From NCBI GenBank assembly GCA_027214385.1, contig JAPVXR010000004.1:248001-312000 (forward strand): DNA of 64,000 bases, given 5' to 3'. Shown piece after piece: positions 31,821 to 34,691 of the stretch. This DNA comes from Cryomorphaceae bacterium 1068. GTDB taxonomy: Bacteria; Bacteroidota; Bacteroidia; Flavobacteriales_D; Cryomorphaceae. The notes beneath the pieces are model-generated. The model had not been told where the DNA came from, ran no database searches, and saw only the letters and a program-made list of their open reading frames with translations. Position numbers and translations under genes: made by a program. The stretch's first letter is position 1. Each line of letters begins with the position of its first letter.

Positions 31821-31848
31821 AAAAGTGCAAGCTCTCACCTGCACTTTT
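31821..31848. terminator. Bidirectional terminator
   Basis: AAAAGTGCA and TGCACTTTT form a 9-bp stem with a 10-nt loop. It can serve gatC (plus) and the outer-membrane protein gene (minus). Confidence 0.75.
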
Positions 31849-31870: not shown

Positions 31871-32788
31871 TTAGAACTTGATAAAGAATCCCGAGGATAC
31901 GGCGAATACGTCTTCGGTATTGGCATTATCAAAAATCGGTAAGAGCCCTACCTGACCGAATAAGGTCAATCTTCGGTAACCAACTCTCACGGTTGCATCA
32001 ACAGCCCATCGATTCAATCCCAGTTCGCCCTTCAATGAAGCCTTATTGTTGTTGCCGTCAAGCGAATATTTTTGCTTGTACATATTCCCAAGCCTCACTT
32101 TTCCCACAACTCCTGCCGTGATGTGGAATGACTTTTTCGGATCTAGTGAAGTATTGAATTCCAATAAAAGAGGTATCCCGATGTATTCGGCTCTTAACTT
32201 ATTCTTGGAAACATTTTTCTCGCCTGTAGGTGAGATTAGCATGCTATCGCCTGCAAAGATCAACTCGTCGGACCCGGAAAACTTGTAGTTGTATATCTGG
32301 AAAGTCAATCCCGATACCAATCCAACGTAGTCTTGCGCCAGTCGTACCTTAACTTGTCCAAAATTGACTGCGATATATCTAGAATTAAAAAATCCAGGTT
32401 CTAACATTCCTGATGTTGGATCATCTGAAAGGCTTGTACCATAATCCTTATTGAGAATTCCATTTAGACCTATGTCTATTCCGTCCCACCAAGTTAATTG
32501 GTATTTAGGGCTATTGCCCCAGTCGTCCCAATCATCGTCGTCGTCATCGTCTATATCTGCTTCAGATTTGCTTACGATCGTGATGTAGGAGTTCTTCAAC
32601 TCAATCCTAGTGGTATCTGAGTAGGTACTGTCAGGATTCATCGTTCGTACCTGTGCATTTACTTTGCCATCCTTCATGGTGACTTCAATTGTTTCAATGG
32701 GCTTAGCCGTCGTGTCAGCCTTTTCCTCTTCTTGAGCAAAAGACGCAATACAAAAGAGAAGAGCTAGTGTGGTTATTATCGTTTTCAT
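31871..32788 (-). CDS. Outer-membrane beta-barrel protein of the ECF regulon
   Basis: This 305-aa exported protein has signal peptide MKTIITTLALLFCIASFAQ. A periplasmic-looking N-terminal segment (about 20-80) holds an Asp-rich run (DIDDDDDDDWDDWG, about 78-91). A PorT/OmpA-like barrel of about eight to ten strands follows, ending in aromatic FFIKF. The function of the Asp-rich run is unknown; it may bind cations or be flexible. Its promoter (32818-32843) matches that of the adjacent sigma-factor gene, so it is probably the sigma factor's target. The start is ATG at 32788, about 23 nt after the predicted transcription start. Confidence 0.7.
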   Translation of the reverse strand: MKTIITTLALLFCIASFAQEEEKADTTAKPIETIEVTMKDGKVNAQVRTMNPDSTYSDTTRIELKNSYITIVSKSEADIDDDDDDDWDDWGNSPKYQLTWWDGIDIGLNGILNKDYGTSLSDDPTSGMLEPGFFNSRYIAVNFGQVKVRLAQDYVGLVSGLTFQIYNYKFSGSDELIFAGDSMLISPTGEKNVSKNKLRAEYIGIPLLLEFNTSLDPKKSFHITAGVVGKVRLGNMYKQKYSLDGNNNKASLKGELGLNRWAVDATVRVGYRRLTLFGQVGLLPIFDNANTEDVFAVSSGFFIKF

Positions 32789-32817: not shown

Positions 32818-32843
32818 GACGGACAGAGGTATTAAAAAGTTAC
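32818..32843 (-). promoter_or_regulatory. ECF-type promoter of the outer-membrane protein gene
   Basis: On the minus strand, GTAAC (32839-32843) is followed after 17 nt by CGTC (32818-32821), the usual ECF -35/-10 pattern. The sequence around it is nearly the same as in front of the sigma gene (34666-34691). The -35 element contains the TAA stop codon of the anti-sigma-like gene. Confidence 0.75.
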
Positions 32844-34153
32844 TTTTTGGTGGAATGCGAAACTTTAAAGCCGCGAATTCTAAGGGAATAAGTAAGTCTG
32901 TCACCCTCGTCATCCACTTCTTTTTTTAACTCAGAATCCAATGCCTCACCGGCTTTATGTGTGATTCGTTTAGCTACACTCAGCGCCATTTCATCTCGTT
33001 CTTGGTCCGATAGATTGAGCTCATCAGCTACACGAGTCTCTGCCATTTCTCCTATAGTTTGATATTCAACTGAGGTAGTTTCAGGAGCGCGATCAGCAAA
33101 TAAAGGTTCAACTTCATCACGCACCTCCACTATAGAATCCGGAAGTGTGACTTGTTCGTTTACAGGACTTTCGAACTCTAATGATTCTGCGAACTCTAAC
33201 TCATCCAAGTCCTCTTGAACCTCGGACATCTTGGGTATTGCTTCTCGTTCGATTTCAGGTTCTTCGTTCTCGGCTACAAAAACAGGATCGGGCTCGCGAA
33301 TCTCCCATTCTTCGAGTTGATACTTCTCGGCTTCAATATCATCGGGAATGGAATCCTCTTTAAACTCTTCCTGCGATTCTGCTGCCTTCAAGGTGTCCGG
33401 AGTAGACTGAACGACTTCTCTTTGCGCATATCTCGGATCAGCAGATTCGGGTTGATTGAGCAGAAAAACCAGCGAGGCGCTCAACCCAACTAAAAGTATG
33501 ATGGCAGCCGCTCGGTAAAAGAGAACCAGTCCTTTCTTTTCTTTTTTCTTAAGCTCATCTTTGAACGGATAGAAAATTCCTTTTGGAGCTTCCAGCTTTA
33601 GTTGATCGGCCAGCGCCAAATCCTTTTCGCCTGTCTCGACTCCCGAAGCATAATTCTCCAGTGCTTGATTCTCCTCTCGGGAAAGAATTCCCTCCGTTCG
33701 GGCAACCAGAAAATCTTCGTAGTTCGCTGAAGTAATGGGAAGAGAAAGCGGCAATTGATACAGCCCTTCTCGGTCAACCGATTCGGCCGTAGAGGCCAAC
33801 TTCAACTTTTGCCAAAGCGCATACTCGTCTTTGAATTGATCCTTTGCAAGCAATTCAGCCAAGAGTTTTTTGTCGTACTCATTTGCATTGCCTTCAGCGC
33901 ACCTGAAGTACAATTGCTCGCGCAATGATTCGTTTTTTGTCAAATCATCGAATGACGGAACTTTCAATTCATTCCAATTGGCAGGATCAGATTCGGGCTC
34001 GAGTGAAACGTTTTCAAACTCTTCCAACTCAGAAGCCAAATCAGGATTTTGAGACAGAAAAGCTTGCAACTCAGTATTGAGTTCTTCACTCAAGTTACCC
34101 TCGAGGTAATCGAGAAAGAAAGCTTCGTAGTTATGTCGAGTAATTTTTTCCAT
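32840..34153 (-). CDS. Predicted anti-sigma factor, single membrane helix
   Basis: This 437-aa protein lies directly after the ECF sigma gene, joined by a TAATG overlap. The N-terminal cytoplasmic part (about 1-205) contains two similar helical modules, YEAFFLDYLEGNLSEE (10-25) and YEDFLVARTEGILSREE (145-161), of the type seen in Bacteroidota anti-sigma proteins. One transmembrane helix lies at about 209-232. The C-terminal part (233-437) is very acidic and would be periplasmic. No zinc-binding His/Cys motif is seen. By position it should sequester the sigma factor at the membrane; the releasing signal is unknown. Confidence 0.7.
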   Translation of the reverse strand: MEKITRHNYEAFFLDYLEGNLSEELNTELQAFLSQNPDLASELEEFENVSLEPESDPANWNELKVPSFDDLTKNESLREQLYFRCAEGNANEYDKKLLAELLAKDQFKDEYALWQKLKLASTAESVDREGLYQLPLSLPITSANYEDFLVARTEGILSREENQALENYASGVETGEKDLALADQLKLEAPKGIFYPFKDELKKKEKKGLVLFYRAAAIILLVGLSASLVFLLNQPESADPRYAQREVVQSTPDTLKAAESQEEFKEDSIPDDIEAEKYQLEEWEIREPDPVFVAENEEPEIEREAIPKMSEVQEDLDELEFAESLEFESPVNEQVTLPDSIVEVRDEVEPLFADRAPETTSVEYQTIGEMAETRVADELNLSDQERDEMALSVAKRITHKAGEALDSELKKEVDDEGDRLTYSLRIRGFKVSHSTKK

Positions 34154-34638
34154 TAAATCACGGCTTCAATGCTGCCGATGTATTGTTTCAATGCTTTTCG
34201 GGCGCGAAAGATGTAAACCTTCACCTGACTTTCAGACATCGATGTAATCTCACCTATTTCTTGGTAGCTATACCCTTCGTAGTCGCGGAGTAATACCACC
34301 GATTTTTGCCTTTCGGGCAATGTCTCCAATGCCTCGTGCAAGATTTCATTCAAGTCTGAGTATTGATTGCTATGCGCAAGCTTTTGTGCTTCCACCTCAT
34401 TGAAGTTTCCCTTTTTCTTATCTCTTCTTATTTGATCAATCATTGTATTGTACCCTGTCGAAAACAGATAGCTCTTTGCTTTTTCTGCATTGACGTCCTC
34501 CACCTTCAGCCACATCTTGGCAAAGGCTTCCTGAACCAAGTCGCGGGCTTGTTCTGTATCACGAGTATGCTTGAGCATAAAGCGGTACAGGCCGTCGGCG
34601 TGGGCATCAACACATTGGTTATAGTCATCAACCGTCAT
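34153..34638 (-). CDS. ECF RNA polymerase sigma factor (sigma-70 family)
   Basis: The 161-aa product has region 2 (about 10-75, including DLVQEAFAKMWLKVED and the -10 reading block YLFSTGYNTMIDQIRRDKK) and region 4 (about 100-155, LPERQKSVVLLRDYEGYSYQ then EIGEITSMSESQVKVYIFRA). This is the normal two-domain ECF architecture. It is the first gene of a two-gene operon with the anti-sigma-like protein. An ECF-type promoter (34666-34691) is located about 21 nt before the ATG, matching the promoter of the downstream barrel gene. Autoregulation is therefore likely. It starts at ATG 34638. Confidence 0.93.
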   Translation of the reverse strand: MTVDDYNQCVDAHADGLYRFMLKHTRDTEQARDLVQEAFAKMWLKVEDVNAEKAKSYLFSTGYNTMIDQIRRDKKKGNFNEVEAQKLAHSNQYSDLNEILHEALETLPERQKSVVLLRDYEGYSYQEIGEITSMSESQVKVYIFRARKALKQYIGSIEAVI

Positions 34639-34665
34639 AGGCTCATCAGAGGGTTACATGGGTGT

Positions 34666-34691
34666 GACGGACAGGGTATCCGAAAAGTTAC
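34666..34691 (-). promoter_or_regulatory. ECF-type promoter of the sigma-factor operon
   Basis: On the minus strand, GTAAC (34687-34691) is followed after 17 nt by CGTC (34666-34669). AGTAACTTTT and CTGTCCGTCACAC flank blocks are shared with 32818-32843. Start would be near 34659. Confidence 0.75.

Follow-up and report, generated by a model that had tools for sequence, protein, structure and literature searches.

A locus on the minus strand of the 64-kb window (the whole stretch of DNA analysed here, 64,000 nucleotides) appears from its sequence to be an autoregulated ECF sigma module of Bacteroidota, with the promoter of an outer-membrane barrel gene as its second output, a reading to which we assign a probability of roughly 0.87. 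The earlier note had proposed that the sigma factor drives both its own operon and the adjacent barrel gene, and this proposal is now supported by footprinting, with the promoter-like element found at 15 of the 16 expected positions in the family and in front of 67 of 74 sigma genes phylum-wide.

The three-gene locus and its two promoter-like sites

The first gene (34153-34638, minus strand), whose ATG position is conserved, encodes a protein of 161 aa that comprises sigma-70 regions 2 and 4 (Sigma70_r2 and Sigma70_r4) without further domains of other sigma-70 groups, which is the domain content of an ECF (group 4) sigma factor. Its matches to PF04542 (E = 6.5e-14) and PF08281 (E = 5.1e-20), both above cut-off, and to TIGR02937 (100.7 bits, cut-off 42.9) uphold the identity given to it earlier. 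The closest NCBIfam model is NF058625, the GFO_1088/PG0214 family of ECF sigma factors, which is the best-scoring family model for the sigma factors of the relatives as well, but the window protein scores 115.7 bits and all tested scores (106.7-127.6 bits) lie under the curated equivalog cut-off of 130.

The stop codon of the sigma gene overlaps by one base with the ATG of the next gene (32840-34153, minus strand), which has an ortholog beside the sigma and barrel genes in all 8 available genomes of the family. Class I anti-sigma factors have a helical domain of the ASD type ahead of a transmembrane helix and are encoded by genes adjoining those of their ECF sigma factors. The earlier assignment of the 437-aa product as anti-sigma-like is plausible, resting on position and architecture; zf-HC2 (PF13490) matches are weak and confined to 2 of 22 orthologs (best E = 0.00063), and no curated family matched the window protein above cut-off. 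The cytoplasmic part consists of three tandem ASD-like modules (33584-34153, minus strand), namely R1 (aa 1-52, 33998-34153; predicted helical, pLDDT ~90), R2 (aa 76-128, 33770-33928) and R3 (aa 136-190, 33584-33748), which were related to one another by hhalign (R1-R3, E = 9.2e-9; R1-R2, E = 1.6e-6), with predicted structure also delimiting R2 and R3. In the predicted layout, this helical part is followed by one transmembrane helix (aa 207-232, 33458-33535, minus strand; hydrophobic stretch RAAAIILLVGLSASLVFLL), ~130 disordered residues and a small C-terminal helix-and-strand element, in which two predicted strands (419-426 and 429-436) form a beta tail (~aa 419-436, 32846-32899, minus strand) ending in RIRGFKVSHSTKK. 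The pattern at the end of the tail, G-x-F-x-[IFV]-x-[RH], is conserved in many of the anti-sigma relatives. Sequence searches of solved structures detected no relative of either this protein or the barrel protein, a structure search with the anti-sigma model returned nothing reliable (best Z, 3.8), and a scan of named genomes with the single anti-sigma sequence as the query yielded no match. Relatives from another family of the order are shorter (~333-358 aa), and some class members sit in frames of 597-738 aa that contain several matches.

The third gene (31871-32788, minus strand) encodes an exported outer-membrane beta-barrel protein of 305 aa, as had been proposed, with a match to OMP_b-brl_2 (PF13568, E = 8e-10, residues 143-276) and a barrel in the structural model; the small outer-membrane proteins retrieved with this model (Ail, OmpA and OmpX) reflect the general fold only. 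The N-terminal segment of the mature protein (DTTRIELKNSYITIVS, aa 58-73; 32570-32617, minus strand), located before an acidic linker, is conserved among orthologs, with D58 and T59 invariant across 19 of them, and includes two short strands (58-64 and 67-73) predicted with low pLDDT. A terminator-like hairpin, defined by consensus match only (12 pairs and a T tail), lies 3' of the barrel gene (31821-31848, minus strand), whereas no terminator-like site was found on the minus strand between the anti-sigma and barrel genes, and thus the barrel protein is possibly made by read-through from the upstream promoter as well as from its own. In seven loci (L255, L258, L261, L278, L284, L292 and L293), the short barrel is replaced by an exported protein of 480-540 aa with a barrel-like end, the start of which may resemble a head-GIN/DUF2807 domain.

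The upstream promoter, P1 (34666-34691, minus strand; GTAACTTTTCGGATACCCTGTCCGTC), precedes the sigma/anti-sigma operon and consists of a -35 element, GTAAC (34687-34691), a spacer of 17 nt and a -10 element, CGTC (34666-34669), followed by ACAC. The second, P2 (32818-32843, minus strand; GTAACTTTTTAATACCTCTGTCCGTC), precedes the barrel gene and is built identically, with GTAAC at 32839-32843, a 17-nt spacer, CGTC at 32818-32821 and again ACAC. Both sites, including the additional shared bases, are located exactly where the earlier note had placed them, but the distance of about 21-23 nt to the ATGs reported there was wrong: counted from the last base of CGTC, the ATGs of the sigma (34638) and barrel (32788) genes are 27 nt and 29 nt away, respectively. 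Directing transcription from a two-block promoter of their own is common, albeit not universal, among ECF sigma factors, and the comparative sequence evidence for it here is strong.

In its bare form, GTAAC-N15-19-CGTC, the motif occurs twice in the 64-kb window versus 0.85 expected occurrences, which is not significant. The extended form, GTAACTTTT-N8-CTGTCCGTC, also occurs twice (with up to 3 mismatches), versus 0.06 expected, and none of 100 shuffled windows contained two such sites. Aligned as 30-mers, P1 and P2 are identical at 23 of 30 bases, with the extended identity GTAACTTTT-N8-CTGTCCGTCACAC, a value above the best of 4,000 random 80x80 comparisons (22, reached once). The significance of the pair hence stems from the extended identity, the bare pattern alone being unremarkable in a sequence of 64 kb. 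In the whole genome (4.32 Mb), the exact pattern GTAACTTT-N14-CGTC and the pattern GTAACTT-N13-17-CCGTC are each found at P1 and P2 only.

The -35 element of P2 contains the stop codon of the anti-sigma gene, as previously noticed, with TAA (32840-32842) falling inside GTAAC. The TAA of GTAAC can double as the stop where promoter and anti-sigma gene are packed closely together. This overlap is found in 2 of 8 family genomes, both from the genus of the window, and in scattered unrelated loci; in the remaining cases, the stop codon comes a few bases before the promoter. Given this limited distribution, the notion of a functional role was dropped and the shared bases are judged incidental, a by-product of compaction without evident function. 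In some f8 genomes (L094, L096, L097 and L098), sequences with an AGGCCT core, partly hairpin-like, lie between P2 and the start of the barrel gene; an interpretation as small RNAs was set aside, a protein start following within ~200 nt.

Conservation of the locus and the motif

The order sigma/anti-sigma/barrel is kept in all 8 genomes of the family, a Cryomorphaceae-type group of Flavobacteriales, where GTAAC-N17-CGTC precedes the sigma gene in 8 and the barrel gene in 7, always with a 17-nt spacer; the exception is a single genome (G006), in which the barrel gene lacks the site. Over these 15 sites, GTAAC, CGTC and an A three bases after CGTC are invariant. The anti-sigma proteins of the family have diverged to 25-55 percent identity with that of the window, which argues that retention of the motif does not merely reflect a lack of divergence. 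Both promoter positions are conserved across species while the neighbouring genes change.

A profile search with the anti-sigma protein detected relatives in 165 of 299 genomes of the order, and at each of the 22 non-family loci inspected, GTAAC-N16/17-CGT was present in front of the sigma gene. Larger stretches from the order showed that the gene order, together with a second site before the barrel gene, recurs in several families. Loci from another order of the class share this gene order, with CGTA instead of CGTC before the sigma gene, and some of them contain a second GTAAC...CGT site within the anti-sigma gene.

The promoter played no part in the choice of two wider sets of Bacteroidota loci, which were picked through the anti-sigma protein; the sets overlap in part, and related genomes are not independent. 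The site was present before the sigma gene in 20 of 27 loci in one set, and GTAAC-N16/17-CGT(C/A) in 67 of 74 loci in the other, with zero occurrences of the reversed pattern in either case and 8 hits among 370 shifted control windows (five per locus) of the 74-locus set. A second site near the anti-sigma stop is found in 26 of 72 phylum-wide loci. At some loci, the sigma promoter is present and no barrel gene follows, indicating that the barrel is not an obligatory part of the module.

Several genomes contain an additional site. In some f8 genomes, a third GTAAC-N16/17-CGTC precedes the gene for a small exported TonB_C-domain protein located upstream of the sigma gene (L094:2119, L097:2007 and L104:1886, on the strand of the sigma gene). 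In three genomes of another order (L170, L172 and L173), GTAAC-N17-CGTC likewise lies 5' of the sigma gene (~1300-1550 on its strand) and precedes the gene for a similar tiny exported protein of ~70 aa.

The proposed circuit and its alternatives

The earlier note had called for a genome-wide search for the regulon, and this search recovered almost no targets beyond the locus. Scanning the 8 whole family genomes for GTAAC-N17-CGTCNYAY produced 20 matches, 15 of them at the locus and the other 5 within the level of the reversed-pattern control. A larger regulon was rejected because the extended motif was no commoner than its reversed-pattern controls elsewhere in the genome of the window and in the 8 genomes of the family, and the same was true outside the locus in another six genomes from the order; the search, which also tried spacings of N16-18, covers the clear motif, and more degenerate sites are possible. 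As far as the motif can tell, the clear-motif regulon is local and comprises two sites. The genome of the window has 19 Sigma70_r4_2 matches, and the motif is absent in front of all its other 15 ECF-type sigma genes, indicating that the motif is not generic and belongs to this particular sigma group.

In the circuit that we propose, the overlapping gene downstream of the sigma gene would encode an inhibitor with cytoplasmic ASD-like modules, a single transmembrane helix and a long periplasmic arm, and this protein would tether the 161-aa sigma factor to the inner membrane. An envelope signal, presumably coming from the outer membrane, would free the sigma factor, and RNA polymerase would then start at GTAAC-N16/17-CGTC. 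Firing of P1 would remake sigma and anti-sigma, possibly with read-through into the barrel gene, whereas firing of P2 would supply extra barrel protein. With a clear regulon of only two promoters, the module would most likely serve as a local feedback loop that tunes the levels of one outer-membrane protein and of the module's own regulator.

We infer that P1 and P2 are transcribed by this sigma factor rather than another; two competing assignments were considered. The GTAACTTTT block could in principle be the -7 element (TAnnTTTG) of a promoter of the primary sigma-A of Bacteroidota, with CGTC a mere part of the leader: TAACTTTT agrees with this consensus, reported for Flavobacterium (PMC9723704), at 7 of 8 letters. 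However, the final G of TAnnTTTG occurs in 0 of 15 family sites and TTT is replaced in several of them (GTAACGAAT, GTAACTAAT), while neither CGTC nor its spacing varies in the family and the distance between GTAAC and CGT holds at 16-17 nt phylum-wide, making a sigma-A promoter most improbable. Recognition by a different ECF sigma factor or by a transcription factor, which would leave the loop unclosed on this sigma, could be entertained in view of the 19 Sigma70_r4_2 matches in the genome and of the overlapping ECF regulons considered likely in F. psychrophilum (PMC9723704). We regard it as highly unlikely: the motif accompanies this sigma group at 67 of 74 loci and is missing before every other ECF-type sigma gene of the genome, and a pair of unlike blocks at a -35/-10 distance, with a one-base tolerance in spacing, is more in keeping with a sigma factor than with a dimeric repressor.

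The alternative that bears on P2 alone is that only P1 matters, the barrel gene being expressed by read-through and P2 being an inherited, functionless duplicate. The stretch between the anti-sigma and barrel genes, free of any terminator-like site, the lack of P2 in G006 and the presence of a site close to the anti-sigma stop in just 26 of 72 phylum-wide loci would all fit such a scenario, but the GTAAC-N17-CGTC of P2 is kept in 7 of 8 family genomes, including those in which the anti-sigma protein has only 25-44 percent identity to that of the window, and a P2-type site occupies the same place in other families. A functionless P2 is thus unlikely.

Relation to known trans-envelope systems

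In the closest parallel, the Dma anti-sigma factors, a transmembrane helix and a disordered tether link the sigma-binding domain to a barrel within one protein, which is encoded beside an ECF21 sigma factor; the main targets of Dma2 are its own operon and some PULs (PMC13088901). Like Dma, the window module is restricted to Bacteroidota and pairs an ECF sigma factor with an adjacent putative anti-sigma, for which an N-terminal sigma-binding part, a membrane-spanning helix and a long disordered tether are predicted, in conjunction with an outer-membrane beta-barrel. Unlike in Dma, the barrel is encoded apart, by the adjacent gene under a promoter of its own; the anti-sigma protein stops at aa 437 without one and has three ASD-like modules and a short beta tail at its end. 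The genome of the window also encodes, beside another ECF sigma factor, a fused Dma-like protein of 519 aa (L215:1378-2937; contig C12:63377-64936, minus strand), with a predicted N-terminal sigma-binding part, a membrane helix, a disordered linker and a C-terminal OMP_b-brl match (E = 3e-4, below the Pfam cut-off); the fused and the split design thus seem to occur side by side in this genome.

In cell-surface signalling (CSS) systems, the C-terminal subdomain of the anti-sigma and the N-terminal domain of the receptor share a fold and pair with each other (PMC11637429). The window module resembles the FecIRA, FoxIRA and PupIRB systems in having an ECF sigma factor, a putative membrane anti-sigma and an outer-membrane protein gene that is probably driven by the sigma, but its outer-membrane protein is a small barrel in which OMP_b-brl_2 was found and no TonB plug, receptor or STN domain. 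By analogy, the module could work like Dma or CSS. With respect to the promoters, the SM6 motif of F. psychrophilum likewise has a CGT -10 box and in one case precedes an ECF/anti-sigma pair, but SM6 also covers T9SS genes (PMC9723704), whereas the search with the window motif revealed no regulon outside the locus; the SigP motif of P. gingivalis (PMC4800418) is different.

A strand-G/N-strand pattern is common to the anti-sigma tail and the N-terminus of the mature barrel; in one genome, for instance, the two sequences are YRFKLGSFEF and TRFKIGRHEF. This similarity was the best of 78,250 profile diagonals, and its mean score over 31 pairs, with related rows among them, was 16.97 versus 14.03 (sd 0.64) for shuffled tails. 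However, the rows are related, the scores do not rise above those of the shuffles in most of the family to which the window belongs, and the tail motif is also present where no barrel follows; the similarity is hence retained only as a lead. On this basis, a split dual-membrane anti-sigma can be tentatively envisaged, although we consider it rather doubtful: the tail would pair with the strand segment of the barrel that begins DTTR, release of the sigma factor would report the state or amount of the barrel in the outer membrane, and P2 would close a homeostatic loop on the quantity of barrel. The TonB_C-domain protein that some relatives encode under a third promoter of the same type could bind such strands.

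The type of circuit is well known, but this version of it, with its promoter signature, phylum-wide hold, tandem-module anti-sigma and separate barrel, seems to be undescribed. Bacteroidota have many ECF sigma factors, few of which have known promoters. The signature found before 67 of 74 sigma genes of one group offers a promoter that can be put directly to the test, for an envelope regulator spread across the phylum, in a minimal two-promoter circuit that should be simple to rebuild. If the tail and the barrel do interact, fused anti-sigmas of the Dma kind and receptors of the Fec type would be linked as variants of one trans-envelope design.
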